Below the pieces are notes generated by a model that did no database searches, was not told the DNA's origin, and saw only the letters and a program-made list of their open reading frames with translations. This document shows positions 2,037 to 28,626 of a DNA stretch of 28,626 nucleotides, one piece after another; position 1 is the first letter of the stretch, and the number at the start of each line of letters is the position of its first letter. The stretch lies in IMG/VR virus record IMGVR_UViG_3300025879_000074, positions 1 through 28,626 of that record. The stretch is one strand, 5' to 3'. Origin of the DNA: a virus. A program made the position numbers and the translations under genes.

Positions 2037-4409
2037 TTATACTTGTCTTTTGAAAGCAGTTATTAACATATTAACATCATATGTACCTATTGATGCATCT
2101 AACTTCAATACAGCTTCCGTAGTTGAAGAAGCATCTATAGAAAAGGATGTAGTATTAATTGCAAAATCTGGGAAGGTATATGTGTCATTAATTGTAGAGT
2201 TACCTGCTTGATCCCATCCCCCAAATAATGTTCCTACTTTTTTCTCTGATTCATTTGTGTTTGAAAGTGAATAATCAACTTTTATACCTGTATATCCTGT
2301 AGAACTATCTATAGGAAATGTATATAAATCGTGATTTCCTACTAGACTAGAAGAATGAAAGTGTATTAATTCTACCCCCGGTAAACCTGGATATCCTTCA
2401 GATGCTATTGTTACTGATCCTACTGCATCTATTGCTCCTGATACTATTAAGGAACCAGTTATTTCTGCATCACCATCTCTTGTTCCATCCCATTCTGTCT
2501 CTATTCCTGTTAATCCACTTCCGTCTCCTACAAATGACCCGGAGAAAATTGAACCGGATATTTCTAAGGTATCGGTAAAATCTACTATCGCTGATGAACC
2601 AGAAACCGTAAAAGAACCGGTTATTTCTGCATCACCATCTCGAGTACCATCCCATTCAACTCCTGTTAAATTAGCTCCATTACCGTGAAAGGAACCTGAA
2701 AATGCAGAAGCGGAAACCTCATTATATACCGTTACTTGACCGGTTGAAAAATCACCATATATTAAAGGTGTGTCAGAGATTGCGTTATTAATGTATAGTT
2801 TATTGTCTATATTAGAAGTAAAATTAGTAGGACCTGCAAGATATCCTAAAAATACGTTATTTGAACCTTTAACATTATACCCTGCATAAGCTCCTATTGC
2901 AGTATTTCCATTATCATCCTGATTCAAGGAATATAGTGTAGTAGTTCCTACAGATGTATTATAATTACCGGTAGTGGTTGATCTAAGTGAGCGATAACCT
3001 ATTGAAGTATTGTGTATACCGGAAGTGATTGCGTTTTGACTTATTGAACCTATAGCAGTATTATGCTTACCGTTACCTGTTCCTCCTAATGTACCGGTAC
3101 CTAGGGCTGCGTTATGACATCCACTATTGTTTCTACCTGCTAGGTATCCTACTAAGGTTGAACAATTTCCTGATAATTGACCTGAGTAGTTTCCTATAGT
3201 TACTAGGTTACGTCCTGTTGCTTGATTGGCGGCATTAATTCCTATAGCTATTCCGTTAAGAGCATTTGTTGAATCAGCATTAGATAACGAACCTTCTCCA
3301 ATTCCTAAAGAAGTAGAATTTAAATTATGTATTTTAATATTCTCATCTACGATTGTAACCCCTTTCAAATCTATAGTTGGATCTGATCCTGATACTATAA
3401 ATGAACCTGTTATTTCCGCATCACCATCTCTTGTTCCATCCCATTCAGATTCTACACTAAGTCCTGTTAACCCAGACCCGTCTCCTACGAACGACCCAGA
3501 GAAGATTGAACCTGATATAGAGTTTACGTTTGTGAAGTCAACTTTTACAGATGAACCGGAAACTGTAAAAGAACCGGTAATTTCTGCATCACCATCTCTT
3601 GTTCCATCCCATTCCTGGGTTACTGTTAAACCTGTTAATTCGGATCCATCACCTTTAAATGAACCGGTAAATGAATTTGCTGTTACTCCTCCTTCTATAT
3701 TTATTTCACCTGTAGAAAAATCTCCTAATATTAAAGGAGTATCTGATGCTTGATTATTTATGTAAAGTTTATTAGACTCTGCTGTTGAACTAGCAGGTCC
3801 TGCACCATTACCCAAATGTACATTACCTGACCCACCTGTTAGGTTTATTCCTGAATTTGCACCTATTGATACGTTTGAATCCCCGTTACTTAGTGTTAGA
3901 AGTGAATTAGAACCTAAAGCAACTGTATCACTTGAATTTAAAGCATTCTTCAAAGAACCGTAACCTAAAGATGTATTATTATCTCCTGTTAAGTTCTTAC
4001 TAGTCTGGTAACCTATTCCTGTATTTTGTGTAGCCCCGGATATACTATCTCCTGCTTCTGATCCTATTAGTACGTTATTATCACCATCATCTTGACTAAT
4101 TCTACCTGTAATACCTACAACGGATCCATCAAAAGTGAAGTTACCTTCTCCTTGTACTAGACCTGATGTACCGGTAGCAGTAACTATTCTATTGTTAATA
4201 TTATCCTGTATGGTAAGTCCTCCTGTTCCTCCGTTTAACGGTACAGTGTAATAGTCTGTAGCAATATCAGTATCGAAGTGAAGCCTTAGAGTATCGCCAC
4301 CGTCGTGTATAGAACTAGAGTGAATAACTGATCTAAAATTGTTATCCATCTCTGTATGTGTCAAAGATGTTCCTTTCTCTAGTCTATATGTTAATCCAGG
4401 TATTGCCAT
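2037..4409 (-). CDS. Large fibre/adhesin protein with YadA-like head repeats
   Basis: A 790-residue protein. Residues 8-45 form an N-terminal module (EKGTSLTHTEMDNNF, then HSSSIHDGGDTLRLHF) also found at the start of the collar protein next door, so it probably attaches the fibre to the virion. Two blocks of N-T-[AS]-[IL]-G repeats (about 110-205 and 385-525) resemble the left-handed beta-roll repeats of trimeric autotransporter heads. Each block is followed by a NKLYINN..SDTPLI..GDFSTG cassette (about 213-234 and 536-557). Four EWDGTRDGDAEITGS units punctuate the shaft. The C-terminus (about 690-790) is non-repetitive and may be the receptor-binding tip. The TATTTATA motif lies 13 bases before its ATG. 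Role as a surface fibre is inferred from architecture and neighbours. Confidence 0.88.
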   Translation of the reverse strand: MAIPGLTYRLEKGTSLTHTEMDNNFRSVIHSSSIHDGGDTLRLHFDTDIATDYYTVPLNGGTGGLTIQDNINNRIVTATGTSGLVQGEGNFTFDGSVVGITGRISQDDGDNNVLIGSEAGDSISGATQNTGIGYQTSKNLTGDNNTSLGYGSLKNALNSSDTVALGSNSLLTLSNGDSNVSIGANSGINLTGGSGNVHLGNGAGPASSTAESNKLYINNQASDTPLILGDFSTGEINIEGGVTANSFTGSFKGDGSELTGLTVTQEWDGTRDGDAEITGSFTVSGSSVKVDFTNVNSISGSIFSGSFVGDGSGLTGLSVESEWDGTRDGDAEITGSFIVSGSDPTIDLKGVTIVDENIKIHNLNSTSLGIGEGSLSNADSTNALNGIAIGINAANQATGRNLVTIGNYSGQLSGNCSTLVGYLAGRNNSGCHNAALGTGTLGGTGNGKHNTAIGSISQNAITSGIHNTSIGYRSLRSTTTGNYNTSVGTTTLYSLNQDDNGNTAIGAYAGYNVKGSNNVFLGYLAGPTNFTSNIDNKLYINNAISDTPLIYGDFSTGQVTVYNEVSASAFSGSFHGNGANLTGVEWDGTRDGDAEITGSFTVSGSSAIVDFTDTLEISGSIFSGSFVGDGSGLTGIETEWDGTRDGDAEITGSLIVSGAIDAVGSVTIASEGYPGLPGVELIHFHSSSLVGNHDLYTFPIDSSTGYTGIKVDYSLSNTNESEKKVGTLFGGWDQAGNSTINDTYTFPDFAINTTSFSIDASSTTEAVLKLDASIGTYDVNMLITAFKRQV
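2458..3618. repeat. Four EWDGTRDGDAEITGS cassettes in the 790-residue fibre gene
   Basis: About 35-40 bases recur four times, near 2458-2496, 2620-2658, 3408-3447 and 3577-3616, with only a few substitutions between copies. They encode EWDGTRDGDAEITGS and are usually preceded by a SGSFVGDGSGLTG segment. The pairs at 2458/2620 and 3408/3577 look like two copies of one larger module. These are in-frame coding repeats, not intergenic elements. Confidence 0.85.
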
Positions 4410-4422
4410 TGTATGTCTTTGT

Positions 4423-4430
4423 TATAAATA
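4423..4430 (-). promoter_or_regulatory. Candidate late promoter octamer TATTTATA
   Basis: TATTTATA on the minus strand, in the 34-base gap before the 790-residue fibre gene, 13 bases from its ATG. The same octamer recurs in the gaps before three other late genes. It is the reverse complement of the T4 late -10 box. The promoter role is inferred. Confidence 0.5.
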
Positions 4431-8346: not shown

Positions 8347-9006
8347 TTAATTATTTACTTTTACGATTGTGATTGGTACAGTTACTCTAGCTCCTGAATC
8401 TCTTCCTATCACTGTGATAGTTGTCTGTAATGTTGATTGTCCTGCAAATAACGTGTTAATAGTAGTTGCAGTTAAGTTGATTGATGTACCTATAACTGTT
8501 TTAGAAACATTAGTACCTAAAGTAGTGGTAGAGTTTAACCTCTCTGCTTCTGGTGTGTTTATCCCTACTCCGTTGTATGTCTGTAATACTCTAGTATCTG
8601 CTATTGTTGCTACATAACCTCCTGCTTCAAAGGTTTGAGTTGAACCTAAGTAGTTTAATGTTTGAGGAGTTATAGCTAGAGATGCTCCTTGTTTTAATCT
8701 AATTGAACTATATCCGATATCTAGAATAGGTAGTTTAGCGGTTCCTCTAGGTAGTGTAGTTAATTTATATTTCATGATTTGAGTCTCATCAGGAAAAGCT
8801 TCTAATAATGGCAAGTTTTCTATCGCTTGTCCATAGTAAGCCGAACCTAAAGGATGTGTTGGATTATACAGGGTATAATCTACCTCATCATCAGAAAGAG
8901 CGAATTGAGTTATTTTAAAGGAGCCATCTCCTCTTGCAAGTAGTTCCCTACCTTTTTTAGTCAATATTGCATCAACCGTAACTATTGAATTATCTAAATA
9001 TCCCAT
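8347..9006 (-). CDS. Conserved virion protein (GYLDN..TVDAILTKKGRELLA family), Ig-like C-terminus
   Basis: A 219-residue protein. The N-terminal half (MGYLDNSIVTVDAILTKKG, then FALSDDEVDYTLYNP, then a tract ending TLPRGTAKLPIL) matches a family I recognise from many marine T4-like phages as a conserved virion protein of unknown function. Residues about 125-219 are Thr/Ser/Val-rich with alternating hydrophobics (SINLTATTINTL, TLQTTITVIGRDSG, VPITIVKV) and look like an Ig-like beta-sandwich. Such domains are often surface-exposed decoration or adhesion modules. A TATTTATA motif lies 20 bases upstream of the ATG, so the gene may open a late transcription unit. The sequence family is fairly sure; the role is inferred. 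Confidence 0.78.
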   Translation of the reverse strand: MGYLDNSIVTVDAILTKKGRELLARGDGSFKITQFALSDDEVDYTLYNPTHPLGSAYYGQAIENLPLLEAFPDETQIMKYKLTTLPRGTAKLPILDIGYSSIRLKQGASLAITPQTLNYLGSTQTFEAGGYVATIADTRVLQTYNGVGINTPEAERLNSTTTLGTNVSKTVIGTSINLTATTINTLFAGQSTLQTTITVIGRDSGARVTVPITIVKVNN

Positions 9007-9026: not shown

Positions 9027-9034
9027 TATAAATA
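9027..9034 (-). promoter_or_regulatory. Candidate late promoter octamer TATTTATA
   Basis: TATTTATA on the minus strand in the 54-base AT-rich gap between the 402-residue and 219-residue virion genes, 20 bases before the ATG of the latter. It matches the motif found before three other late genes. Confidence 0.5.
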
Positions 9035-19236: not shown

Positions 19237-20414
19237 TATTCTGTAAATACTTTTTTAGACTTCAATTGAGATGGTCCGTTAGGGTTAATTAAATCATTTA
19301 ATGCTTTTATAACTGGTTTTGCTTGCATTCCTCTCTTGTTTAGAAGAGGTATAGGTTTTCCATCTATAGTTTTAGCTTTAGCCATATCTGTAGACATTCC
19401 TTCTAGTACCCCTAAAACGCTCTCTAAAAATAGTTCTAATTGATTTCCTAAAACTACTCCCTCTTTTCTACCTCCTACTGCCGTTCTAGCTGCTTTGCCT
19501 AAAAATATTTGAGAACCATCCAAACATAGGTAGTTTTTAGAATCAATATTAACTGTACCTTCTGTATTTAGTCCTATAGATTCTATACTAGAAAGTTGTA
19601 TATCGTGTTCTTTTGCATTGAAGAATAACCTACCGCCATTTATTATGACTTGATTACCTTTAAATATTTTCGCTTCTAGTGGAGTATCATCATATGCATC
19701 TCTTTTTGAGCTAGCTTGTTCTAAAGGTATTTTGTGATCTGATACAAGGTATATAGATGAACTATCTTCGTTAATATCTTCACCTAATATAGTAAAGCCC
19801 TCCTCGGTCTCTTTTTGACCATTACTTAAAATTATAACAGGTTTACCTAAATTAGAATTATCAACCCATGGATTTGTAATTGATTTCCCACCTGTAAATC
19901 TAAGTGATTGACCCTGTCTACCTTCAAATTGAATATCCCCTGGGCTAGAACCTATTGGATTTACAGTACCTAGTTCAAGGAAAGTATTATTTTGTGAAAA
20001 ATCTATATCGGAATTATTAACAGTGTCTGGGTAGAAATTATTATTAGGGTTATTCCAAATATTTAGAATCTGTGTATAATACTTTCTTGTTTTGTTTTTA
20101 AAGTCATCATCAGATGGTATTGGGAGTGCTTCTACTTTTACAATCTCTCCAACTAAAGGGACTTCTTTTATCTGTGCACCTACCTGGTAAGCAAATGGTA
20201 AATCAGTTTTTCCTTGCTCACTAGCATTAGATTTTAGAGGTTTATAGAATACTCCGTTTATAGATATACCTCCTCCTTTAGCAGAGTATTGTTCATGAGA
20301 TTCATCTAAAATAACATCTACAACTCTGCCGTAATAAGTTGAACTGGATCCTTTACCTGAATTCTGAGATGATGAGGAACTTAACGTATTCGATAAAGAA
20401 AGGTTATAACTCAT
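19236..20414 (-). CDS. Baseplate hub/spike protein with gp5-like OB-fold N-terminus
   Basis: A 392-residue protein. After a Ser-rich start, residues about 27-105 (YYGRVVDVILDESHEQY, ISINGVFYKPL, VPLVGEIVKVEALPIP) match the OB-fold module seen at the start of gp5-like hub proteins in marine T4-like phages: a GRVV-x-V/I-x-L-D strand and a PLVGEIV strand. The remainder (about 150-390) includes GRQGQSLRFTGG and ILSNGQKETEEGFT, then NGGRLFFNAKEHDIQLSS and TEGTVNIDSKNYLCLDG, which look like beta-prism or beta-helix strands of the spike. No T4-type lysozyme domain is seen, so it would not cut peptidoglycan by that route. It overlaps the neighbouring 120- and 271-residue genes. Confidence 0.68.
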   Translation of the reverse strand: MSYNLSLSNTLSSSSSQNSGKGSSSTYYGRVVDVILDESHEQYSAKGGGISINGVFYKPLKSNASEQGKTDLPFAYQVGAQIKEVPLVGEIVKVEALPIPSDDDFKNKTRKYYTQILNIWNNPNNNFYPDTVNNSDIDFSQNNTFLELGTVNPIGSSPGDIQFEGRQGQSLRFTGGKSITNPWVDNSNLGKPVIILSNGQKETEEGFTILGEDINEDSSSIYLVSDHKIPLEQASSKRDAYDDTPLEAKIFKGNQVIINGGRLFFNAKEHDIQLSSIESIGLNTEGTVNIDSKNYLCLDGSQIFLGKAARTAVGGRKEGVVLGNQLELFLESVLGVLEGMSTDMAKAKTIDGKPIPLLNKRGMQAKPVIKALNDLINPNGPSQLKSKKVFTE

Positions 20415-20766
20415 CTTCTTTTCTTTTTTCTTCTACTTCTTCTTTAGTTTCTTCTGATTCTTCTAATAGGCTCTGTAGATCGGAGAAGTCAAACATATCA
20501 TTTTCACTTCCCTTACTTTGAATTGCTTCTAATCTTTGAATTACGGTTGCTAATTTAATTAAGTGTTCGTCGTTCTTCACTCCTATATCCATATACTCTT
20601 TAATCATAGGAACTAGAAGAGTGGCATCTCCTATATTTTCTATGAGAGGTTTTAATTCTCCTATAAGACCTTTTACTTGAGTTTTAGTTTCTCTAGAGTT
20701 ATTGTAGATTTCTTCGAAGAGATCCGACATTTTCTTTCCGTTAAATATTTCTTTTTCCGAATCCAT
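20404..20766 (-). CDS. Acidic helical phage protein, function unknown
   Basis: A 120-residue, strongly acidic protein. Two helical stretches (about 12-45 and 55-90, the latter with IGVKNDEHLIKLATVIQRLEAI) are followed by an extremely charged tail (EESEETKEEVEEKRKEDEL). It overlaps the gp5-like gene by 11 bases and follows the gp55-like sigma-factor gene, so it stands between the regulatory and structural genes. An acidic C-terminus can suit a transcription co-activator (T4 gp33 is small and acidic) or an assembly chaperone, but no direct similarity is visible. A TATTTATA octamer lies 11 bases before its ATG. Confidence 0.7.
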   Translation of the reverse strand: MDSEKEIFNGKKMSDLFEEIYNNSRETKTQVKGLIGELKPLIENIGDATLLVPMIKEYMDIGVKNDEHLIKLATVIQRLEAIQSKGSENDMFDFSDLQSLLEESEETKEEVEEKRKEDEL

Positions 20767-20777
20767 TATTATTTTAT

Positions 20778-20785
20778 TATAAATA
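20778..20785 (-). promoter_or_regulatory. Candidate late promoter octamer TATTTATA
   Basis: TATTTATA on the minus strand in the 21-base gap after the gp55-like gene, 11 bases before the ATG of the 120-residue gene. It would start the late morphogenesis transcript and is one of four exact copies in gaps of the late block. Confidence 0.5.
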
Positions 20786-20787
20786 GA

Positions 20788-21492
20788 TTATAACTCCTTA
20801 ATTGTAATTAACCCTTCATCATAGTACTTATAATATAATTCGTAGAAGTTTTTTTTAAGTGTGTAGATTACTTTAGTAAGGTGAGGTGTTTCGCAATCAG
20901 TCATTTCTCGAATGTAAATATACAGTGCTTTTTTCTTAAATATATCTAAATCATTTCTAGTCTTAAATATAGTTAAAACAGCATCAGCAATTCTCTGTTC
21001 ACTTTCTTTAATAAAGATGTCATCTAAATTATTGTATGCTTTCTCAACCCATATATCGATGAATTGACTTAAGGTAATTGTCCCTGGGAGTTTAACGTTT
21101 AGTTTTCCTTCGTATGATTCTTCCATATCATCAAAGGAACCTATTTGTTTTAATTTCTTATAATTCTTATTATTATAATTGATTAACCACCTCTTCACAA
21201 TAGTACCAAAATAAGAGTATGCTTTCGCCCCATTAGTAGGATCAAATTTCATAATCTTCTCCTCTAACAACATAGATACTACCTCGTGTTTTAAATCCTC
21301 TATCCTCTCTACATCTGTATAGTAGAATTTAAAAGTATGTATTATATTTTCTGCTAACTTATAAAAAGGAATGTAGATGTGGTTGGTGAATATCTTAGCT
21401 CTATATTCACTATCTGTTGAAGTATTATATTTAACTATATATTCATCTGTTTCTGATGTGAAGTAATTTGCTTTACTCTTCTTTCTTGCCAT
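20788..21492 (-). CDS. Late-transcription sigma factor, T4 gp55-like
   Basis: A 234-residue protein. Residues about 64-109 (IEDLKHEVVSMLLEEKIMKF, then DPTNGAKAYSYFGTIVKRWLINYNNK) match the reduced sigma region 2 of T4-type late sigma factors: a helix contacting the RNA polymerase clamp, then an F-D-P-x-x-G-x-x-A-x-x-Y-F motif and a basic helix for -10 recognition. T4 gp55 is 185 residues; this version is longer, with an additional C-terminal region. The family is known to replace the host sigma and read a TATAAATA-type box with no -35. It overlaps the membrane-protein gene by 20 bases and precedes the morphogenesis block it probably activates. Assignment to the sigma family is firm. Confidence 0.85.
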   Translation of the reverse strand: MARKKSKANYFTSETDEYIVKYNTSTDSEYRAKIFTNHIYIPFYKLAENIIHTFKFYYTDVERIEDLKHEVVSMLLEEKIMKFDPTNGAKAYSYFGTIVKRWLINYNNKNYKKLKQIGSFDDMEESYEGKLNVKLPGTITLSQFIDIWVEKAYNNLDDIFIKESEQRIADAVLTIFKTRNDLDIFKKKALYIYIREMTDCETPHLTKVIYTLKKNFYELYYKYYDEGLITIKEL

Positions 21493-21769: not shown

Positions 21770-22504
21770 TTATAGTTTTTTTAACATATCACTTAAACCT
21801 TGTGATGAATTCACTTTCTTTCCTGTAGATGATTGTGTTTTCTGAATTGTAGGTTTAGATGTTCCTCCATTTTTCTTCCATAAATCATATTCAACCTTAG
21901 ATGCTAAGAAGTCTCCTGTATGTAATACTGAAACTATATTGGTTTTCTGTCTAGAACTTTCTTGATGACTGAAAAAGTATGCTTCATTAGCTTTATCGAA
22001 GACTCCGTCATGTATCCTTATGGCTATGTACTCCTGTTGATCACATTGTATTCCGAATTTTTGAAGAATATAAAGAGATCTATCTTGAATTAACATAAAA
22101 TCCAACTCAGGATTATTTAAATACACCTCAGATAATTTATCCCTTCTCCATTTATCAGTTTGAGGAATATAGTTAGGTAATTCTCCATTTCCTAATTTAC
22201 CTAAATCATGGAAGAGAGCAGAAAAAACTAATTGTTCTTCTGTATAATCTGTTGTTCCTCCCATTTCCTTATACATATTATGTTGTTTTATAGAATATTC
22301 TACCACTCTATTAACATGATCTACATATCCTCCAGGGAATGCATTATGAAACCATGCCTTCCCACTAGCAGGAGCCATGACATAGGTATCGGATAATGTA
22401 TTTACCATCGATAAAACCTTATCTTTCCTCTCTCCGGTTAGGTAGTGGTTAATAATTTTAAGGTGTTTATCCCAATTTTTCTCTATCTGCTCTGCTGTTA
22501 ACAT
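21770..22504 (-). CDS. HD-domain phosphohydrolase
   Basis: A 244-residue protein with an intact HD metal-binding set: H63 (GGYVDHVNRV), H99-D100 (SALFHDLGKLG) and D198 (LHTGDFLAS); a further H165-D166 (RIHDG) may also bind metal. Such enzymes hydrolyse phosphate esters of nucleotides or cyclic and alarmone nucleotides. The substrate cannot be read from sequence; a nucleotide or second-messenger pool of the infected cell is likely. HD proteins of this size (DHVNRV, F-H-D-L-G-K-L) are frequent in T4-like marine phages. It starts 2 bases after the small 57-residue gene, and the gp55-like gene lies downstream in the same operon. The Lys/Ser-rich tail from about 215 is probably disordered. Confidence 0.88.
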   Translation of the reverse strand: MLTAEQIEKNWDKHLKIINHYLTGERKDKVLSMVNTLSDTYVMAPASGKAWFHNAFPGGYVDHVNRVVEYSIKQHNMYKEMGGTTDYTEEQLVFSALFHDLGKLGNGELPNYIPQTDKWRRDKLSEVYLNNPELDFMLIQDRSLYILQKFGIQCDQQEYIAIRIHDGVFDKANEAYFFSHQESSRQKTNIVSVLHTGDFLASKVEYDLWKKNGGTSKPTIQKTQSSTGKKVNSSQGLSDMLKKL

Positions 22505-22506
22505 AA

Positions 22507-22680
22507 TTAATCTTGTGTTTCGGTGTTAAGTAATGTTTGCATATAAGATAAGTTAGAGTTAATTTCATCTAACACCTCGTATGCTTCTCTTCTTTCCATT
22601 CGTCCTATGTGAAAATTAAGAGATTTAGTTAGTAATTCTAACTTTTCTACTTTATCTTGTATAATATTTTTATTTCTCAT
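22507..22680 (-). CDS. Small helical protein, 57 residues, HD-operon leader gene
   Basis: ATG at 22680, stop at 22507-22509. The protein is one long charged helix with heptads (KVEKLELLTKSLNFHIGRME, RREAYEVLDEINSNLSYMQ). It ends two bases before the HD-protein start, so it is almost certainly cotranscribed and may be translationally coupled. Coding length, lack of overlap with other genes and tight spacing support it as real. Function unknown; a small partner of the HD protein is a guess. Upstream lies a 112-base extremely AT-rich gap with no clear promoter. Confidence 0.65.
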   Translation of the reverse strand: MRNKNIIQDKVEKLELLTKSLNFHIGRMERREAYEVLDEINSNLSYMQTLLNTETQD

Positions 22681-22792
22681 ATAATGTATATATTTAATTG
22701 ATTATAATTTTATTTATTATTAATATTTTTATTATTATTAATATTATATTTAATATAGAATAGAAGCTACGAAAAATTTTTTTAAGAAACAA

Positions 22793-23314
22793 CTACTCTA
22801 TTATTATTTTTTCTGATAGTAATTTAGATTTAGTTAAATTTCCTCCGTCCCAATATATTTCTGCATCTATTGTAATAGTATCTCCTACAAAATACTGAGG
22901 AATAGGTCCTATTATCCTCTTTGCCCACTTTCTTCCTGGAATACTAGGAGTAAATTCACTCATATTTCTAGAAGTACTTAAAAGTATTGTTGTTTCCTGT
23001 ACTAAAGGTAGCTGATAACCTCCTTGATAAACCCCAAACGAAGAAGAACTAAATGCACTTCGTACTATCCCCATATCATTATAATAATAATAAGGATCCA
23101 CATCCTCAGCTTCTACAAAAATAGGAAATCTTGCTGTACCCTCTATTATAAAAGCTAATTCTACATGGTAATATCCATTTGAATCTTGTGGGAAAGGAAT
23201 ATATACTTTACCATCACAATTACCTGATAAACAAAGTGGAGGATTGAATTCATTTTCTGTACAAGAACCTAATAATAGCCCACTTAATACTAATATATTA
23301 ACTAATTTTCTCAT
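22793..23314 (-). CDS. Phage-encoded lipoprotein, probably surface-exposed
   Basis: A 173-residue protein. Residues 1-18 are a lipoprotein signal: MRK basic start, hydrophobic core (LVNILVLSGLLL), lipobox LGSC with the acylated Cys at 18. The next residues TENE are acidic, resembling Bacteroidetes lipoprotein export signals that send lipoproteins to the cell surface. The mature part has a Tyr run (PYYYYND) near 75, many beta-type strands and few Lys, and no enzymatic motif. Phage lipoproteins often block superinfection by masking receptors or DNA entry; that role is inferred. The gene has its own TTG-N20-TATATTTA promoter (23334-23364) and the AAAGGTT leader. It is last in the small-gene region. 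Confidence 0.82.
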   Translation of the reverse strand: MRKLVNILVLSGLLLGSCTENEFNPPLCLSGNCDGKVYIPFPQDSNGYYHVELAFIIEGTARFPIFVEAEDVDPYYYYNDMGIVRSAFSSSSFGVYQGGYQLPLVQETTILLSTSRNMSEFTPSIPGRKWAKRIIGPIPQYFVGDTITIDAEIYWDGGNLTKSKLLSEKIIIE

Positions 23315-23333
23315 AACCTTTTTTTATTGTACC

Positions 23334-23364
23334 TAAATATACGAAAAAATATAGTAGAAAGCAA
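23334..23364 (-). promoter_or_regulatory. TTG-N20-TATATTTA promoter for the lipoprotein gene
   Basis: Minus strand: TTG at 23362-23364, a 20-base spacer, TATATTTA at 23334-23341. Leader of about 19 bases from the end of the box to ATG, with AAAAGGTTATG at the start. Variant: the two bases before the box are CG instead of CT. Confidence 0.8.
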
Positions 23365-23377
23365 GAAAAAGTAGAAG

Positions 23378-23406
23378 AAAAAAAGGGTTAGTATAGAGAA
23401 TTAACC
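23378..23406 (-). terminator. Candidate terminator of the GIY-YIG operon
   Basis: Minus-strand RNA: stem GGTTA (23402-23406) with TAACC (23386-23390), 11-base loop, then C and seven U (23378-23384). The stem is short, so efficiency is uncertain. A GC-rich hairpin set lies just before it, and the lipoprotein promoter just after. Confidence 0.45.
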
Positions 23407-23408
23407 GC

Positions 23409-23437
23409 CGCGCGAAACGCGCGATGTTCGACCGCGC
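23409..23437. other. GC-rich island with two mutually exclusive hairpins
   Basis: Three short CGCGC arms sit in about 30 bases of strongly GC-rich DNA surrounded by AT-rich sequence. The middle arm (23418-23423) can pair perfectly with 23409-23414 (6 bp, loop AAA) or with 23433-23437 (5 bp, 9-base loop), but not both. The outer arm touches the stop codon of the 44-residue gene. It may belong to a compound terminator or an attenuator-like switch. Confidence 0.5.
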
Positions 23438-23571
23438 TATCTTTTATACTTTCTTAGGTATTTTTTAGCGTATCTAATAATACCAAACATAAGATATGAT
23501 GAAGTATTAGGGTAGATAAATCTCATTCGAGAGGCACGCTCATCTACGGTATTAAACGTTTTAAATTGCAT
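23437..23571 (-). CDS. Small basic protein downstream of the GIY-YIG gene
   Basis: ATG at 23571, TAG at 23437-23439; 44 residues, basic (ending RYAKKYLRKYKR). It starts 9 bases after the T5orf172-type gene stops and, like it, is richer in G and C than neighbouring genes, so the two probably arrived and are expressed together. No family is recognised. It could be a DNA-binding accessory, or it might be spurious; the adjacent operon layout favours a real gene. Confidence 0.5.
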   Translation of the reverse strand: MQFKTFNTVDERASRMRFIYPNTSSYLMFGIIRYAKKYLRKYKR

Positions 23572-23580
23572 GGTAGAGGG

Positions 23581-24198
23581 TTAATATATGATAGGATTAC
23601 CGGCTTGAAACATAGCTCCAATCTCCCGGATCTTATCCATTGCTTTAAATATATCGATCTTGAACATCTCCCTATCGTTCTCATGTTGGACATGATGGCG
23701 GTGTTGTTGGAAGAATTTATGAACCTGTTGTTCGACTTTCATCCCGGCCGAAGGAAGGACAGGAAGTGCGAATTTAACCTCCCATACATCCACCGTACCG
23801 GTACCATTTATCTGTTTGAGGCGGTGTTCGGGTGTGTTGCGAGTCATACCGATCTTAATAAGATCAGGATACCCTTTATTAACCAAAGCGTAAACATACT
23901 CAGTATCATCTTTAGTAATATTGCGTATACTGGTAGATTCTATCGCTCTTAAGTATTTCCATTTATAGGTATACGAATTTATCTTAGTAGTCTTCTCAAT
24001 AAGGTAACGAGCATTAAAATGCTCGGGTATATACTGAGGAGATATATGACGGGCTTTGGTTCTTAATTGTAAGTAATTCGCCTGCCATTCTTTAGCCCTA
24101 CTATGATAGGTTGTATCATCACCTGTATCAAAGATTGTGATCCTACCCTGTTGTTCTAATTCGAGGGCTTTTTCGAAAGTAATTTTATCTGTTAACAT
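23581..24198 (-). CDS. T5orf172/MUG113-type GIY-YIG superfamily protein
   Basis: A 205-residue protein. The C-terminal domain (about 100-185) has the T5orf172 layout: YVYALVN strand (101-107), LIKIGMT strand (113-119, the YIG-equivalent), R126 and L127 on the following helix, E156 with QQVHKFF (a catalytic-type Glu), and an N-D-R-E-M-F-K strand near the end. Such domains are GIY-YIG nuclease relatives found in phages, often in mobile or DNA-processing genes. The N-terminal 95 residues are Gln/Tyr/Arg-rich and could bind DNA. Base composition is visibly more GC-rich than the neighbours, a sign of transfer, yet the gene sits behind a perfect phage-type promoter. Endonuclease activity is likely but not proven. 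Confidence 0.82.
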   Translation of the reverse strand: MLTDKITFEKALELEQQGRITIFDTGDDTTYHSRAKEWQANYLQLRTKARHISPQYIPEHFNARYLIEKTTKINSYTYKWKYLRAIESTSIRNITKDDTEYVYALVNKGYPDLIKIGMTRNTPEHRLKQINGTGTVDVWEVKFALPVLPSAGMKVEQQVHKFFQQHRHHVQHENDREMFKIDIFKAMDKIREIGAMFQAGNPIIY

Positions 24199-24216
24199 AA
24201 CCGTTTTTTATATATG

Positions 24217-24247
24217 TAAATATATGAAATTAAAGTAAGTCCTCCAA
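24217..24247 (-). promoter_or_regulatory. TTG-N20-TATATTTA promoter for the GIY-YIG operon
   Basis: Minus strand: TTG at 24245-24247, 20-base spacer, TATATTTA at 24217-24224. The TTG lies inside the 3' end of the upstream gene. The leader ends AACGGTTATG, one base away from the AAAGGTTATG used elsewhere. Confidence 0.78.
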
Positions 24248-24661
24248 CTGTTTATTCAATAGAAGGTCTATATATCTTTTTATTTTTGCACATCTTTCAT
24301 AATACTCTTTATACTGGTAGTATAGTAGGAGATCATGGAGTACTTCTATGGTTCTACCTCTATCTAAGTGTGTATCTGTACCTAATATCTTTCCCATATC
24401 ATCTATATCTATTTTAAGTAGATATGAGTACATTTTATTGTAATACTTACTCTTTATCTTATCCTTTACCTCGGAATAACTCTCCTGGTATTTAAAAGAA
24501 TATAATTTATCCAATATGGTGTAATTCTCCATACCTGTAACTAAAGTACCTAATAAAGTGAAAGGATTATCTAATTCCTCCTCCATACCGTATTCCTGGT
24601 ATACCTCTTGGTCTCCTTGTTCAAAGATTGAGAATATTGAGTCGGGGTTTAATTTATTCAC
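24230..24661 (-). CDS. Helical phage protein of unknown function (start uncertain)
   Basis: The reading frame can begin at GTG 24661 (143 residues) or TTG 24721 (163 residues). I prefer GTG because a TATTTATA octamer lies 18 bases upstream and the longer form would add an odd hydrophobic stretch. An internal ATG lies at 24589. The protein is Tyr-, Leu-, Lys- and Glu-rich and nearly all helical. Its last helices (LHDLLLYYQYKEYYERCAKIKRYIDLLL) resemble UVR-type helix pairs, though I would not assign that family. Upstream is a 420-bp non-coding region; downstream its 3' end holds the -33 element of the next promoter. Function unknown. Confidence 0.62.
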   Translation of the reverse strand: MNKLNPDSIFSIFEQGDQEVYQEYGMEEELDNPFTLLGTLVTGMENYTILDKLYSFKYQESYSEVKDKIKSKYYNKMYSYLLKIDIDDMGKILGTDTHLDRGRTIEVLHDLLLYYQYKEYYERCAKIKRYIDLLLNKQLEDLL

Positions 24662-24679
24662 TTTATAGTTGGTTTTGAC

Positions 24680-24687
24680 TATAAATA
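24680..24687 (-). promoter_or_regulatory. TATTTATA octamer before the 143-residue gene
   Basis: Minus-strand TATTTATA 18 bases before the GTG at 24661, within the 11-46 base range of the other copies. It overlaps the longer TTG-start frame, so it is only non-coding if the GTG start is right. Candidate late promoter. Confidence 0.35.
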
Positions 24688-24721
24688 GTTCTATATTAGT
24701 TATAAGAACGATAACAATCAA

Positions 24722-25081
24722 TCTTATATATAGACTCTATAGTATAGTCCACCAAAATACTCACCGTTGATTGACATATTGAACAACACACCCTATATGA
24801 TGAAAAAGTTGCCAAAATTTTTTTTTATGTCTAAGTAAAAACATATGGGGAAAGTATAGAGAGAAAAGCAGTATGAGGGGTAGGTAAGTAATACTTACTT
24901 AAAATATATACATATATACCACCTATATAGTGAAAAATCATCAGAAATATGCAACCTAGTATGGCTCCTCACGAGGCCTCTCACGACGTTGTAGGGAACA
25001 ATACTGTCAGTGTTATATCAGTCTTATATAACCTTTACCTAACCCTTACTCAATCCCCCTCTACTGTCTCTTTTATTTTTC
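24722..25081. other. Non-coding region with clustered inverted and direct repeats
   Basis: No convincing gene lies here on either strand. Structures seen: a near-palindrome at 24733-24749; a direct pair on the minus strand, TTTTTCATCATATAGGG and TTTTTCACTATATAGGT (near 24785-24802 and 24919-24938); inverted repeat GTAAGT-AAT-ACTTAC at 24884-24898; a more GC-rich patch near 24966-25005 with the direct pair TCGTGAGAGG/TCGTGAGGAG (minus strand) around the palindrome GAGGCCTC. It may hold a promoter, operator, origin or small RNA. None of the nine TTG-N20-TATATTTA promoters lies in it. Confidence 0.6.
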
Positions 25082-25396
25082 CTAACACGTACCGCAGTCC
25101 TTTAATTCATCACCACATATAGGACAAACCTTACTATCTACTTGATCCTTTAAAGGAGTATATGGTTTTAGATCTTCATATATCAACTCCTGTTCGGCTA
25201 AGTTACCCATCATATAAGTATATACTGTACAGGTAGTATCTGTAATGTTATCTATATTACCTTCAGTACTTACCATTAACTTCTTACCATCTGAAGCTCT
25301 ATGTACTCTAGAGATATACTTTCCTTTTTCTTCTGCTCTATAGTTTGCTCCTTTGAATACAAACTCTTTACCATTTAAAAATTCTTGCTTTGTCAT
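25082..25396 (-). CDS. Small phage protein with C-terminal zinc-knuckle-like motif; paralogue of upstream gene
   Basis: A 104-residue protein. Residues 2-80 align end to end with the 86-residue product just upstream (TKQEFLNGKEF against TKQQFLDGKEF; then YISRVHR/LSILRVYR, SASDGKK/PEGKE, and YEDLKPY/FEDMELY), so the two arose by tandem duplication. This copy adds about 20 residues with C91-x2-C94 and C101-x2-C104 (CPICGDELKDCGTC), a likely zinc-binding knuckle that could contact nucleic acid or protein. The gene follows its paralogue by 4 bases and shares its promoter. The shared domain is not one I can name. Confidence 0.78.
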   Translation of the reverse strand: MTKQEFLNGKEFVFKGANYRAEEKGKYISRVHRASDGKKLMVSTEGNIDNITDTTCTVYTYMMGNLAEQELIYEDLKPYTPLKDQVDSKVCPICGDELKDCGTC

Positions 25397-25400
25397 ACTA

Positions 25401-25661
25401 TTATTTCTTTATAGGGTTATACAATTCCATATCCTCAAATCTAAGTCTATGTTTGATCTGTCTACTGAATACAAATGTATATGTTGATACTATCTTATTA
25501 CCTACCTTATCTACATTAGCTTCACTATCTATAAACATCTCCTTTCCTTCAGGAGTTCTATATACTCTTAGGATTGATAAACCACCATCATTTAATTTGT
25601 AATTACCACCTGCTAATGTAAATTCTTTACCGTCTAAAAATTGTTGTTTTGTAATTGCCAT
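25401..25661 (-). CDS. Small phage protein, paralogue of the 104-residue protein
   Basis: An 86-residue protein opening MAITKQQFLDGKEF and continuing with the same strand-rich domain as the following gene, but ending at NPIKK without the cysteine tail. The order of conserved pieces (TKQ-x-FL-x-GKEF, NY[RK], S[RL]V[HY]R, GKK/GKE, E-[GA]-N-[IV]-D) is preserved along the whole length. It is led by the TTG-N20-TATATTTA promoter at 25693-25723 and the common leader, so it begins a two-gene operon. Unknown function; small size and promoter class suggest an early or middle host-takeover protein. Confidence 0.78.
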   Translation of the reverse strand: MAITKQQFLDGKEFTLAGGNYKLNDGGLSILRVYRTPEGKEMFIDSEANVDKVGNKIVSTYTFVFSRQIKHRLRFEDMELYNPIKK

Positions 25662-25692
25662 AACCTTTATTTGTTTTAATTATTAATATACC

Positions 25693-25723
25693 TAAATATA
25701 AGAAATATTTATTGGGTATCCAA
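25693..25723 (-). promoter_or_regulatory. TTG-N20-TATATTTA promoter for the paralogue pair
   Basis: Minus strand: TTG at 25721-25723, 20-base spacer, TATATTTA at 25693-25700, followed by GGTATATTAATAATTAAAAC and AAATAAAGGTTATG. The upstream part overlaps the end of the 28-residue gene. Confidence 0.85.
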
Positions 25724-25795
25724 ATCTTTATTTAATTGCTCATAGTAATGAAATATTGAAACATATTCCAACTCTTTTTCTTCTTCTTTTTTCAT
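25709..25795 (-). CDS. Very small acidic protein, 28 residues
   Basis: ATG at 25795, stop at 25709-25711. The start has the standard AAATAAAGGTTATG leader, placed immediately after the stop of the 52-residue gene, which argues that translation truly starts here. The peptide is mostly charged (MKKEEEKELEYV) with an aromatic patch. No TTG-N20 promoter precedes it, so it would be read from the one at 26000-26030. Too short to classify. Confidence 0.55.
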   Translation of the reverse strand: MKKEEEKELEYVSIFHYYEQLNKDLDTQ

Positions 25796-25810
25796 AACCT
25801 TTATTTGTTT

Positions 25811-25969
25811 TTATGAATTAAATTTAACATTCAATTGCTTATACATCTGTTCATCCATTCCTGTTTGTTCTAATATATCCTGAATAGTCTCTCCATCTAA
25901 TTCCATCTCATTGATTAACCCTATAATGTTGTTAACAACATATTCTTTTAAACTTCCTGATTCTACCAT
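25811..25969 (-). CDS. Small acidic helical protein, 52 residues
   Basis: ATG at 25969, stop at 25811-25813. The sequence (SLKEYVVNNIIGLINEMEL, then TIQDILEQTGMDEQMYKQL) predicts two or three amphipathic helices. It has its own promoter (26000-26030) and the shared leader ending AAAGGTTATG, which firmly fixes the start. The 28-residue gene follows by 15 bases, forming a two-gene operon. Function unknown. Confidence 0.7.
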   Translation of the reverse strand: MVESGSLKEYVVNNIIGLINEMELDGETIQDILEQTGMDEQMYKQLNVKFNS

Positions 25970-25999
25970 AACCTTTATTTGTTTAATTATTAATATACC

Positions 26000-26030
26000 T
26001 AAATATAAGAAATATAATTGTAAGTACCAA
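26000..26030 (-). promoter_or_regulatory. TTG-N20-TATATTTA promoter for the 52/28-residue operon
   Basis: Minus strand: TTG at 26028-26030, 20-base spacer, TATATTTA at 26000-26007. The TTG lies in the loop of a GTACC/GGTAC inverted repeat (26024-26028 with 26039-26043) that also contains the stop of the upstream gene. Confidence 0.85.
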
Positions 26031-26031
26031 C

Positions 26032-26469
26032 CTAAGCCGGTACTTTATTTTCATTGAATACAAATGCTTTATCCGCCCATGTCTTACTATTAACTGCTCT
26101 ATACTGATTGTTATCCATTAGATTAGTATTGTACCATAACTGATTGATTACTCCTACTTCTAATCCTCTCATTATAGCTTCATCCATCAATATTACTTTA
26201 TTTCCTTTTCTAGCAAATACTGTAAAGAAATAATCTAATCCTGCAGGTTTATATTCTACTGTATGTAAAGCTCCTTTCTTATATTGACTTAATACAGAAG
26301 AAGGTTTGTTATATAATCTTTCATCATCAAAATCTCTAGCATCATTACATGTAAAAAATCCTGCCTTACATTTAGTAATGAATCTAAACTTACCTGGTGC
26401 ATTATCGTAATCTTTATTATTGATAATGTCTACTGTTCTAATGTCTGTTGTGTTTGTAATTGCTGTCAT
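26032..26469 (-). CDS. Phage protein of unknown function, 145 residues
   Basis: The protein has a mixed alpha/beta composition (KFRFITKCKAGFFTCND, VEYKPAGLDYFFTVFARKGNKVILMDE) and two cysteines at about 34 and 41. No family, signal peptide or membrane span is recognised. It stands alone behind promoter 26497-26527 and the common leader. Its upstream 70 bp are nearly identical to those of the 65-residue gene at 28309-28506, although the coding regions differ. A terminator of the upstream gene separates it from that transcript. An early or middle host-interaction role is a guess from its promoter class. Confidence 0.75.
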   Translation of the reverse strand: MTAITNTTDIRTVDIINNKDYDNAPGKFRFITKCKAGFFTCNDARDFDDERLYNKPSSVLSQYKKGALHTVEYKPAGLDYFFTVFARKGNKVILMDEAIMRGLEVGVINQLWYNTNLMDNNQYRAVNSKTWADKAFVFNENKVPA

Positions 26470-26536
26470 AACCTTTATTGTTTTAATTATTATATCTAAA
26501 TATAAGAAATATAATTGTTACTCACAACTTTATTTT
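26467..26536. repeat. Promoter-leader repeat, copy 1 (copy 2 at 28504-28576)
   Basis: These 70 bases match 28504-28576 with one 3-base length change and one substitution. The repeat spans start codon, leader, TATATTTA box, spacer and TTG, and about 10 bases beyond. The identity is much greater than between the other seven promoters, so it marks a recent duplication or conversion of a complete regulatory cassette. Confidence 0.85.
26497..26527 (-). promoter_or_regulatory. TTG-N20-TATATTTA promoter for the 145-residue gene
   Basis: Minus strand: TTG at 26525-26527, 20-base spacer, TATATTTA at 26497-26504 followed by GATATAATAATT, then the shared leader. It lies right after the terminator at 26553-26585, isolating this gene as its own unit. 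Confidence 0.85.
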
Positions 26537-26552
26537 TGATTAAAATAAGAAA

Positions 26553-26585
26553 AGGCCTAAGAGGATTATAAAGTCTCTTAAGCCT
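26553..26585 (-). terminator. Rho-independent terminator after the coiled-coil gene
   Basis: Minus-strand RNA: AGGCTTAAGAG (26575-26585) pairs with CTCTTAGGCCT (26553-26563), 11 bp with one mismatch, 11-base loop, then UUUUCUUAUUUU. It lies 33 bases after the stop of the 273-residue gene. Confidence 0.75.
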
Positions 26586-26617
26586 ATTTCTACTTATTAA
26601 TAATTAAAACTAAGTGG

Positions 26618-27439
26618 TTATGAAGCACTTATTCTTTCTGAGTTATATTGTAAGAATCTTTCTATATTCTTCATTCTTACTTTCTCATATATGTTTGTTA
26701 CGTTATTTGTAACATATTCTTCCTTTTTATTATCCCAAGTATTTCCTACTCTAGTAACTTCAATATCTGCAGACTTACCAGATTTAGTTTTACCTAATAT
26801 TCTTAATCCTATCACATATCTAATCTGGTGATCAAAAGCTACATCTAATGATGGTAGATTATGGTATGATTTATCTTCTGGTAATTCAAATTCTATACCT
26901 TCATCCTCTAATACTGTGAGTAAGTTTTCCTTTTCTATAACTTTTATTTGGTTACTTACTTCTGTAATTTCCTTATCTAAATCATATATCTGTTTTCTCT
27001 TCTCACTTATTCTATCCTCAAAATCAGATAAAACTTTATTGTAAGCTCCTAAAATATCATCATAAAAATCTAATACAATTTGACCTACTTTTCCTATCAA
27101 TATCATTCTTTTTAATTCAAATTCAGAATTATCAGTTGTAGAATAAAATGATGTCTCAATAGCATTACATTTAACATCCCTCCAATACTCTTGTTTGAAA
27201 TATAATGTTAATATATCTTTACTGTAATTATATCCTTCTTGAGGTCTTGCAAATTCTATCCTACCATCTGATACCTTAATTGTATCTTCCTTCTCTAATA
27301 CTTCCTCAAAATATTCATGAGCAACTCTAGATAATTGATCTATTCTAGATTCTTTAAATGAATTGTAAGCCTTACTTACTTTACTTTTACTTTCTCTTAA
27401 TTCAACTAACTTTTGTTCTAAAATTGTAATACGTGTCAT
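26618..27439 (-). CDS. Coiled-coil phage protein, 273 residues
   Basis: The frame extends further upstream to 27538, but I place the start at ATG 27439 because it follows a complete promoter (27466-27496) and the common AATAAAGGTTATG leader; the extension would read through both. Residues about 3-35 and 135-185 are long heptad helices (LEQKLVELRESKSKVSKAY, RISEKRKQIYDLDKEITEV). Between them and after them are globular parts, the latter with SLDVAFDHQIRYVIGLRILG and KSADIEVTRVGNTWD. No catalytic motif is recognised. The length and domain layout suit a protein-binding or DNA-associated accessory factor. It ends in a clear terminator, so it is transcribed alone. Confidence 0.78.
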   Translation of the reverse strand: MTRITILEQKLVELRESKSKVSKAYNSFKESRIDQLSRVAHEYFEEVLEKEDTIKVSDGRIEFARPQEGYNYSKDILTLYFKQEYWRDVKCNAIETSFYSTTDNSEFELKRMILIGKVGQIVLDFYDDILGAYNKVLSDFEDRISEKRKQIYDLDKEITEVSNQIKVIEKENLLTVLEDEGIEFELPEDKSYHNLPSLDVAFDHQIRYVIGLRILGKTKSGKSADIEVTRVGNTWDNKKEEYVTNNVTNIYEKVRMKNIERFLQYNSERISAS

Positions 27440-27465
27440 AACCTTTATTGTTTTATTATTATACC

Positions 27466-27496
27466 TAAATATAAGAACTTTTTCTTTTTCTAGCAA
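27466..27496 (-). promoter_or_regulatory. TTG-N20-TATATTTA promoter for the coiled-coil gene
   Basis: Minus strand: TTG at 27494-27496, 20-base spacer, TATATTTA at 27466-27473. It begins 8 bases after the stop of the 58-residue gene and fixes the downstream start at 27439. Confidence 0.85.
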
Positions 27497-27503
27497 CTTA
27501 TTA

Positions 27504-27680
27504 CTATTGTTTTTCTCTATAGTAAGTAACTTTATCAAATCCTTTATACCTTCCTTCTGTATTAGTAATTAAAGTATAATGAGTAGGAGTATTAGATACT
27601 TTAGATCTTTCATAATCATTTAGTCCTTTAGGAATTTCTCTAAACCTATTTTTATCAATAGGAGGTTTTAATTTCATCAT
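27504..27680 (-). CDS. Small basic protein, 58 residues, near-leaderless transcript
   Basis: Tandem ATG codons at 27680 and 27677, stop TAG at 27504-27506. Basic and aromatic composition (KPPIDKNRFREIPKGLNDYE, GRYKGFDKVTYYREKQ), probably one compact domain. The promoter TATATTTA box ends only four bases before the first ATG, so the transcript should begin at or beside the start codon, unlike all the others in the region, which carry a 19-30 base leader. Function unknown. The perfect promoter spacing supports it as a real gene. Confidence 0.68.
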   Translation of the reverse strand: MMKLKPPIDKNRFREIPKGLNDYERSKVSNTPTHYTLITNTEGRYKGFDKVTYYREKQ

Positions 27681-27684
27681 AAGC

Positions 27685-27715
27685 TAAATATAAGAATTAA
27701 TATTAAAGTAAACAA
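27685..27715 (-). promoter_or_regulatory. TTG-N20-TATATTTA promoter, leaderless type
   Basis: Minus strand: TTG at 27713-27715, 20-base spacer, TATATTTA at 27685-27692, then GCTT and ATG. With a start point some 4-7 bases after the box, RNA would begin about at the ATG pair at 27680/27677. Confidence 0.8.
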
Positions 27716-27729
27716 CTAAATAAGCAAAT

Positions 27730-28035
27730 CTATAATGATTCTAAATAAGAAATAAAATCACCAGCATAACTCTTACCACCAATATTAAATCTACCCAAAG
27801 CATGAATAGTATATTCTTTATCATAAGTCTTCCAATCATATATAGTAAATATATCATCTCCGTAAGCTACTACCCATTCCACCTGGGTTTTATTATCCCC
27901 AGATGGTTTGTCAATAGTTGGTTCTCCTAATCTATCTACTAATTGATCGTAAGTTAGATTTAGATATCCCTTCAAGCTAGTTCCGTTAGTGCTTGGTTCA
28001 TCTCCCTTTTCAAATGCTCTTAATACTTTCGCCAT
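27730..28035 (-). CDS. Conserved phage protein (TSLKGYLN..YDQLVDRLGEP family)
   Basis: A 101-residue protein. Residues about 19-43 (TSLKGYLNLTYDQLVDRLGEP), the QVEWVVAYGDDIFTIYDWK segment (about 51-69) and the RFNIGGKSYAGDFISYL end match a small-protein family I recognise from many large phages and viruses. Its usual pattern is a G-Y-[IV] start, YxxLVxxxGxP, an EW strand, a TIYDWK strand and an IGG-K-s turn. The family's function is unknown. It starts 1 base after the 73-residue gene and shares its promoter. Family resemblance is from memory, not a search. Confidence 0.8.
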   Translation of the reverse strand: MAKVLRAFEKGDEPSTNGTSLKGYLNLTYDQLVDRLGEPTIDKPSGDNKTQVEWVVAYGDDIFTIYDWKTYDKEYTIHALGRFNIGGKSYAGDFISYLESL

Positions 28036-28036
28036 C

Positions 28037-28258
28037 TTATTGTTCTTTAGTTAAGTTAGTAACTTCCTCCTTTACATTCTCTAATGCAATCTTATAACCA
28101 TAATTCATAGCCATCTGCATTAATAACAAATCCATCGATCCTTGATTAGCTTTAGCAAAGCTTTCTAAATACTCTCTTGAATCAGGAGTAGCAACTATTC
28201 CTCGATCTAACATTTTAAACTCACTTGCAAAATACTCATTTAATTTTTTAACATTCAT
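28037..28258 (-). CDS. Small helical protein, 73 residues
   Basis: Helix-rich, charged sequence (VKKLNEYFASEFKMLDRG, SREYLESFAKANQGSMDLLL, MAMNYGYKIALENVKEEV). It opens a two-gene operon with the 101-residue conserved protein (1-base gap), under the promoter at 28289-28319 and the common leader that fixes the ATG. No family is recognised. It could be a partner of the downstream protein, judging only by tight coupling. Confidence 0.72.
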   Translation of the reverse strand: MNVKKLNEYFASEFKMLDRGIVATPDSREYLESFAKANQGSMDLLLMQMAMNYGYKIALENVKEEVTNLTKEQ

Positions 28259-28288
28259 AACCTTTATTGTTTTAATTATTAATATACC

Positions 28289-28319
28289 TAAATATAAGAA
28301 ATATTATCTTATGCTCCAA
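28289..28319 (-). promoter_or_regulatory. TTG-N20-TATATTTA promoter for the 73/101-residue operon
   Basis: Minus strand: TTG at 28317-28319, 20-base spacer, TATATTTA at 28289-28296, GG, AT-rich leader and AATAAAGGTTATG. The TTG lies inside the last codons of the 65-residue gene. Confidence 0.85.
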
Positions 28320-28506
28320 CTATTAACTTAAAATTATTTGCTAATAATTTATCTGTAAATTGAAACTCCATACCCGGATTCATACTAGCTCCATCTACAG
28401 ATTCAAATATCATCTCATCTCTATCTGTAAGTTTAAATGCTTCTCCTTGCATGATTGGTAAAGAACCACCATCTAACTGAATACCTTTAATACACTCTAT
28501 TAACAT
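28309..28506 (-). CDS. Small protein of unknown function, 65 residues
   Basis: A compact, strand-rich acidic protein (MLIECIKGIQLDGGSLPIMQ, ESVDGASMNPGMEFQFTDK, NNFKLIVGA). The promoter at 28537-28567 and the standard leader define the start. Its last codons contain the -33 TTG of the next promoter, showing how tightly this region is packed. The upstream 70 bp are nearly the same as those before the 145-residue gene. No function can be given. Confidence 0.72.
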   Translation of the reverse strand: MLIECIKGIQLDGGSLPIMQGEAFKLTDRDEMIFESVDGASMNPGMEFQFTDKLLANNFKLIVGA

Positions 28507-28576
28507 AACCTTTATTGTTTTAATTATTATTATACCTAAATATAAGAAATATAATTGTTACTCACAACTTTATTTT
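28504..28576. repeat. Promoter-leader repeat, copy 2 (copy 1 at 26467-26536)
   Basis: Near-identical 73-base copy of the cassette at 26467-26536, including the start codon, leader, both promoter boxes and spacer. It overlaps the stop codon of the partial gene at the window edge. Confidence 0.85.
28537..28567 (-). promoter_or_regulatory. TTG-N20-TATATTTA promoter for the 65-residue gene
   Basis: Minus strand: TTG at 28565-28567, 20-base spacer, TATATTTA at 28537-28544, GG, then leader ending AATAAAGGTTATG. Confidence 0.85.
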
Positions 28577-28626
28577 AAAGTATTTTCATAAATAATATCC
28601 TCTAATTCTCCTGAAGATTCTATACT
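28570..28626 (-). CDS. 3' end of a gene entering from the right edge
   Basis: From the window edge the frame reads SIESSGELEDIIYENTLK and then TAA at 28570-28572. Only 18 codons are visible, so no function can be given. It is assigned as a gene end because it stops just before the next promoter, as the other genes in this region do. Confidence 0.45.
   Translation of the reverse strand, partial: SIESSGELEDIIYENTLK

Follow-up and report, generated by a model that had tools for sequence, protein, structure and literature searches.

Two-part elements with an invariant 20-nucleotide spacing as probable early promoters of an Immutovirus-like phage of Bacteroidota

Nine copies of a two-part promoter element, TTG-N20-TATATTTA, lie on one strand of the virus record IMGVR_UViG_3300025879_000074, each with exactly 20 nucleotides (nt) between the TTG and the box. 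Judging from sequence, we consider it likely that they are early promoters of a T4-type phage, adapted to the RNA polymerase that its Bacteroidota host uses with the primary sigma factor. The stretch analyzed, hereafter the window, is the complete IMG/VR record of 28,626 nt and is probably a fragment of a larger genome. Its phage is an Immutovirus-like, T4-type, large virus of marine Bacteroidota: its baseplate wedge protein and a sigma-like protein each share 62% identity with their counterparts in Flavobacterium phage vB_FspM_immuto_2-6A (immuto), a T4-type member of the genus Immutovirus with a genome of 160 kb, and the gene order is that of immuto around 66-98 kb. The left 20 kb of the window encode baseplate and tail proteins; the right 6 kb, where all nine promoters are located, encode small proteins, nearly all without known function. 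Rfam and tRNA scans of the window gave no match.

A direct scan of both strands found nine sites, all of them on the minus strand, at the very positions given in an earlier note on this DNA (Table 1), and the observation proved stronger than the note had claimed. Dinucleotide shuffles of the region 22501-28626 (n=1000) contained a mean of 0.029 sites and a maximum of one. This region has 11 minus-strand TATATTTA boxes, nine of which are preceded by TTG at k=20; the remaining two (27846-27853 and 23646-23653) lie within open reading frames (ORFs) and are without the flanks. With a weight matrix built from relatives alone, the nine sites came out on top, at 17.5-47.1 bits, the next site scoring 5.5 and the shuffled maximum being 1.0. 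A generic sigma70 scan yielded sites no more numerous than in shuffles. The box is 18-31 nt upstream of an ATG in eight sites and 4 nt upstream in that at 27685-27692. The TTG elements at 28317, 25721 and 24245 overlap the final codons of the preceding ORF; all nine -7 boxes are non-coding and stand just before ORFs. Of the flanks it described, TTTCT before the box is exact in only five sites, where the shorter TTC holds in all nine, and AGG follows the box in six. Its statement that the spacers otherwise differ must be qualified: one and the same spacer, TGAGTAACAATTATATTTCT, is present at 28537 and at 26497, and that of the 26000 site is very similar, so that about seven of the nine sites are independent.

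The element is conserved in the phage group. Immuto has 23 exact copies of TTG-N20-TATATTTA, every one of them on the coding strand, together with one copy at N19 and two at N21; no promoters figure among the annotations of the immuto record. On the gene strand of 80 related loci, nearly all gathered through similarity of their proteins, the element is seen 80 times with N20 and only zero to four times with each other spacing from 14 to 26. At N20, these loci have 116 boxes ending in A (A-type) against a single one ending in G (G-type). Sites inside one phage group are related and hence non-independent. When boxes were picked without regard to TTG, 85 out of 98 had TTG at 20; under a different definition, with contigs collected by motif excluded, TTG was at exactly 20 in 108 of the 123 boxes, at 21 in two and at 19 in none. 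That the fixed spacing is selected, as the note had held, is supported. Alignment of the sites reveals a longer element, A-tract / AGTTGC / TTC-N-TAT[AC]TTTA-GGTAT, in which the A-tract, TT, AAA and AGTTGC follow one another, TTC-N stands directly 5' of the box and GGTAT 3' of it. A second form of the box, TATCTTTA, retains the same spacing in 30 of 37 instances. The host-type box TAHHTTTG is absent from all coding-strand gaps of immuto, and the TTG-N20-TATATTTA class is therefore the best candidate for a promoter read by the unmodified host enzyme.

The same spacing is observed in other phages. In Mel-JY01, which encodes a sigma-like protein with 37% identity to that of the window, TTG-N20-TAnnTTTG is present in 24 copies on the plus strand versus four on the minus strand, with the same TTCG flank and a box that ends in the host G. 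Two further phages of Bacteroidota type, G090 and G082, are long records picked up solely by the N20 promoter pattern, irrespective of kinship to Immutovirus; boxes were counted without this pattern in the fetched stretches. In the part of G090 that was read, TTG is at 20 for 18 of 22 TAT[AC]TTTG boxes. In one part of G082, it is at 20 for 13 of 16 G-type and 11 of 13 A-type boxes, which lie side by side with the same flanks in the same gene cluster; this mixture suggests one enzyme able to read both. The distant relative G070 shows TTGACA-N17-TATATTTAGG, after which come TAGG and Shine-Dalgarno-like leaders; this is a promoter of the sigma70 type in which TTG and TA stand just as far apart. 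In LR756508, the N20 excess is absent from the 100 kb examined. The fixed N20 is thus a phage trait that extends beyond the Immutovirus group, and it equals the 17-bp spacer of sigma70. The TTG-to-TA distance is common to phages with different boxes and probably different hosts; its simplest reason is the geometry of the primary-sigma holoenzyme. The earlier note had proposed a phage factor demanding the exact spacing; no such factor is needed, because strict N20 is also kept with the ordinary host box TAnnTTTG (Mel-JY01, G090 and G082) and because A and G boxes are mixed in one phage, so that the host enzyme could by itself explain the spacing.

Two of these phages call for separate remarks. 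Mel-JY01 (PP395634; L520, L523-L525) is recorded as a Microcystis phage, yet its promoters are of the Bacteroidota type; instead of the cyanobacterium, some other bacterium present in the culture may be its true host. G082, a phage of 412 kb, has dozens of TTG-N20 promoters, and its A-ending boxes are grouped in one stretch among G-ending ones (L648, G082:354000-373999).

Primary-sigma (sigma-ABfr / sigma-A) promoters of Bacteroidota are characterized by a -33 TTTG and a -7 TAnnTTTG element (PMC7366714, PMC9723704, PMC6847099), and the published promoter boxes of F. johnsoniae and F. psychrophilum end in G. In 60 Flavobacteriaceae genomes, TATATTTGCACC far outnumbers its reversed control. Among 150 matches listed for TTTG-N13-27-TATATTTGCA in Flavobacteriaceae, 23 have N18, 61 N19, 21 N20 and 15 N21. 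Strong host promoters have TTTG at N18-N21 from TATATTTG, and a Psychroserpens rRNA operon presents an A-tract, TTG, N20/N21 and TATATTTG. In two host genomes, upstream regions show forward-sense enrichment of TAHHTTTG but none of TAHHTTTA. The phage element shares with these promoters a TTG near -33, a box from -12 to -5 that starts with TA and contains TTT, A/T-rich surroundings and a TTG-to-box distance inside the host range of about 18-21 nt. It differs from them by a spacing fixed at 20, where that of the host is variable with a mode of 19, by a box that ends in A in place of the G at -5 of TAnnTTTG, and by the additional AGTTGC, TTC and GGTAT. We may thus regard it as working like a Bacteroidota primary-sigma promoter, while not a standard member of the class. 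Host genomes were considered as a source of the element and rejected, eight of them showing no excess over the reversed control. A scan of genome contigs for the element returned isolated single matches spread over many phyla.

The nine sites appear as promoters in every sequence test, and the phage-optimised form of the Bacteroidota primary-sigma promoter that the earlier note had proposed is, in our view, their best explanation. Beyond that note, we found the A that replaces the host G at the end of the box, the further conserved parts of the element and a phage-encoded sigma-like protein. The sites, their fixed spacing, extended consensus and placement before ORFs, their conservation in the group and the shared spacing elsewhere are shown by the sequences; which polymerase reads them, when they fire and where transcripts start we infer. 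Sigma region 4 would contact the -33 TTG, which the group consensus extends to AGTTGC, while region 2 would contact the -7 box TAT[AC]TTTA; the upstream A-tracts would act like an UP element, and the conserved TTC before the box and GGTAT after it would provide additional contacts. With TTG and TA exactly 20 nt apart, the element would have the geometry seen in the strongest promoters directed by sigma (for sigma70, TTGnnn-17 bp-TATATT), which the phage would keep constant where host promoters drift by one or two bases. Every promoter would then fire one or two small genes right after infection. T4 early promoters have been described as 'uber' promoters with extra conserved positions (PMC2988021). 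The present sites resemble them in belonging to a T4-type phage, in their number and position before small genes, in their UP-like A-tracts and in conserved positions beyond the host consensus (PMC2988021), which they fail to match at one base; they differ in their presumed use of a Bacteroidota host polymerase and in their -33/-7 elements.

Several points weigh against host-read early promoters. The strongest concerns the end of the box: its final base is A in all nine sites of the window, in 34 cases in immuto (with one T and no G) and in 107 cases versus one G among boxes picked without TTG, and in mapped F. johnsoniae promoters the G at this position (-5) is nearly invariant (PMC6847099). 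The commonest host spacing, among the matches listed, is 19 and not 20, and TTG-N20-TATATTTAGG shows no excess over its reversed control in eight Bacteroidota genomes. The label 'early' derives from gene content and place alone; the literature searched holds no transcript data for these phages, and the one paper found there on phages of the host strain of immuto does not mention promoters (PMC7077304). It is conceivable, if rather unlikely, that Immutovirus-type phages have a distinct specificity, whereby a polymerase that reads 7-deazaguanine DNA, or that has been changed by a phage factor injected or made early, would prefer A to the host's G at -5 and demand exactly 20 nt.

The sigma-like protein, encoded by ORF 20788-21492, has relatives in at least 596 stretches of viral contigs. 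Seventeen of 40 family members weakly match Pfam Sigma70_r2 and four weakly match a PHROG of late sigma factors; the Sigma70_r2 score of 13.7 bits is below the curated cut-off of 24, and the window protein is without a PHROG match. A Foldseek search of its AlphaFold model (pLDDT 75.5) against the PDB gave no significant match, and a PDB sequence search nothing relevant. With VIA-align, residues ~8-112 superimpose onto region 2 of many sigma factors, the best (sigma-E) with a Z of 9.4 and a root-mean-square deviation of 2.4 over 91 residues, a Z of a size that can arise by chance for helical folds. In a BFVD search with the model, a viral sigma-like protein ranks high. The model thus points to a sigma region 2 fold. 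In Immutovirus records, the protein is annotated as hypothetical (L010:28174-28872, immuto26A_153).

A separate motif, TATTTATA, has 30 copies in immuto, of which 23 lie no more than 60 nt from a gene start, mostly that of a structural gene, and with TTG at no set distance; in the window, it precedes structural ORFs four times. The T4 late promoter motif is TATAAATA. Like T4 with its late promoters and gp55, the phage thus has a sigma-like factor and a -10-only motif before structural genes. The factor probably serves TATTTATA as another, late promoter class, a link between factor and motif that we infer. A -10-like element alone describes the TATTTATA class and not the nine sites, which all carry the -33 TTG at N20 and so belong to a class different from T4 late promoters.

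Could this sigma-like factor instead read the nine sites, requiring TATATTTA and the exact spacing? We hold this to be unlikely. In its favor, the window and its relatives share a gene for a conserved protein folded like sigma region 2, copies of the element are concentrated in the phage group that carries this factor, and the box deviates from that of the host at its most conserved base. However, a gp55-like factor is better fitted by TATTTATA, with its structural genes and lack of a positioned TTG; phages with homologous factors have quite different boxes (TAnnTTTG in Mel-JY01, TTGACA/TATATT in G070); and a phage needs a host-readable class at entry, for which no other candidate was found in immuto. 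Less probable still are middle-type promoters, at which a phage activator would bind AGTTGC and replace sigma region 4 in the manner of T4 MotA/AsiA. Both systems combine an upstream element with a -10 box, AGTTGC exceeds the host TTG in both length and conservation, and a docked activator would need a fixed distance; but the TTG here is at the sigma -33 contact whereas the MotA box is centred at -30, phages without the AGTTGC form retain N20, and no activator was identified, although no search aimed at MotA or AsiA was made.

A further proposal concerns the last base of the box only and is compatible with host-read early promoters: in phage DNA containing 7-deazaguanine, a modified G at -5 would be misread and A selected. 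Immuto encodes DpdA along with QueC/D/E and FolE (preQ0 genes), relatives of its DpdA occur in 12 of 14 long records, mostly drawn from the group, and Mel-JY01, which has no match to DpdA/preQ0 genes, uses G. A Pfam TGT search was uninformative as a test for DpdA, as it missed immuto's own. The contrast between users of A and of G nevertheless amounts to essentially one clade against one phage, G082 mixes A and G, and the same promoters retain G in TTG and GG; we find the proposal very improbable. Finally, the sites could be no promoters but dispersed repeats serving replication, recombination or packaging. The identical 20-nt spacer of two sites indicates that duplication has occurred, yet the single orientation, the link to ORF starts, the two-part promoter-like structure and the presence of the same spacing amid unrelated sequence in other phages leave this idea with almost no credibility.

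Other features accompany the promoters. At promoter 3 (27680-27692), the predicted +1 is the A of the ATG 4 nt past the box, and the mRNA is possibly leaderless. A minority of sites have a terminator-like hairpin over the promoter, sometimes with a UUCG loop, with the -33 TTG in the stem and a T-run merging into the TTTC before the box. Such promoter-overlapping hairpins (z < -3) are found at 45 of 369 sites and 8 of 369 controls, with examples in immuto (L009-L012), L028, L038, L138, L380 and others; in the window, the hairpin at 26000-26044 covers the TTG of promoter 6 (minimum free energy -11.6, z -4.1). A leader, AAAGGTTATG, recurs at eight minus-strand starts of the window (28513, 28265, 27446, 26476, 25976, 25802, 25668 and 23321) and nowhere on the plus strand; that at 25802 is a start without a promoter. 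AAAGGTTATG has G at -3, contrary to the A-3 preference reported for Flavobacterium (PMC6847099).

Table 1. Promoters and other features of the window (predicted starts and targets of the promoters are derived from position)
Feature	TTG	Box or motif	Span	Strand	Predicted +1	Bits	Putative target or remark
Promoter 1	28565-28567	TATATTTA 28537-28544	28537..28567	-	28532	47.1	ORF 28309-28506 (65 amino acids)
Promoter 2	28317-28319	28289-28296	28289..28319	-	28284	41.5	ORFs 28037-28258, 27730-28035
Promoter 3	27713-27715	27685-27692	27685..27715	-	27680	17.5 (weakest)	ORF 27504-27680
Promoter 4	27494-27496	27466-27473	27466..27496	-	27461	44.7	ORF 26618-27439 (273 amino acids)
Promoter 5	26525-26527	26497-26504	26497..26527	-	26492	40.9	ORF 26032-26469; spacer as in promoter 1
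Promoter 6	26028-26030	26000-26007	26000..26030	-	25995	43.8	ORFs 25811-25969, 25709-25795
Promoter 7	25721-25723	25693-25700	25693..25723	-	25688	33.5	ORFs 25401-25661, 25082-25396
Promoter 8	24245-24247	24217-24224	24217..24247	-	24212	28.1	ORF 23581-24198 (T5orf172 domain, Pfam E 4e-13)
Promoter 9	23362-23364	23334-23341	23334..23364	-	23329	31.3	ORF 22793-23314 (lipoprotein-like); immuto counterpart at 76214
Recurrent leader, example		GGTATATTAATAATTAAAACAAATAAAGGTT-ATG	25659..25692	-			
Sigma-like factor			20788..21492	-			234 amino acids; putative sigma region-2 fold at residues ~8-112
Candidate late-type motif		TATTTATA	20778..20785	-			19 nt before ORF 20404-20766
Candidate late-type motif		TATTTATA	9027..9034	-			before ORF 8347-9006
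Candidate late-type motif		TATTTATA	4423..4430	-			before ORF 2037-4409

Promoters of Bacteroidota phages are hardly covered in the literature searched. The sharp consensus and fixed spacer of the element allow transcription units to be annotated across hundreds of uncultured phages, and further uses may include host prediction by promoter type and strong promoters for Flavobacterium and its relatives. Since variable spacing blurs the -33 elements of hosts, phages with a fixed spacing may reveal the preference of the polymerase itself.

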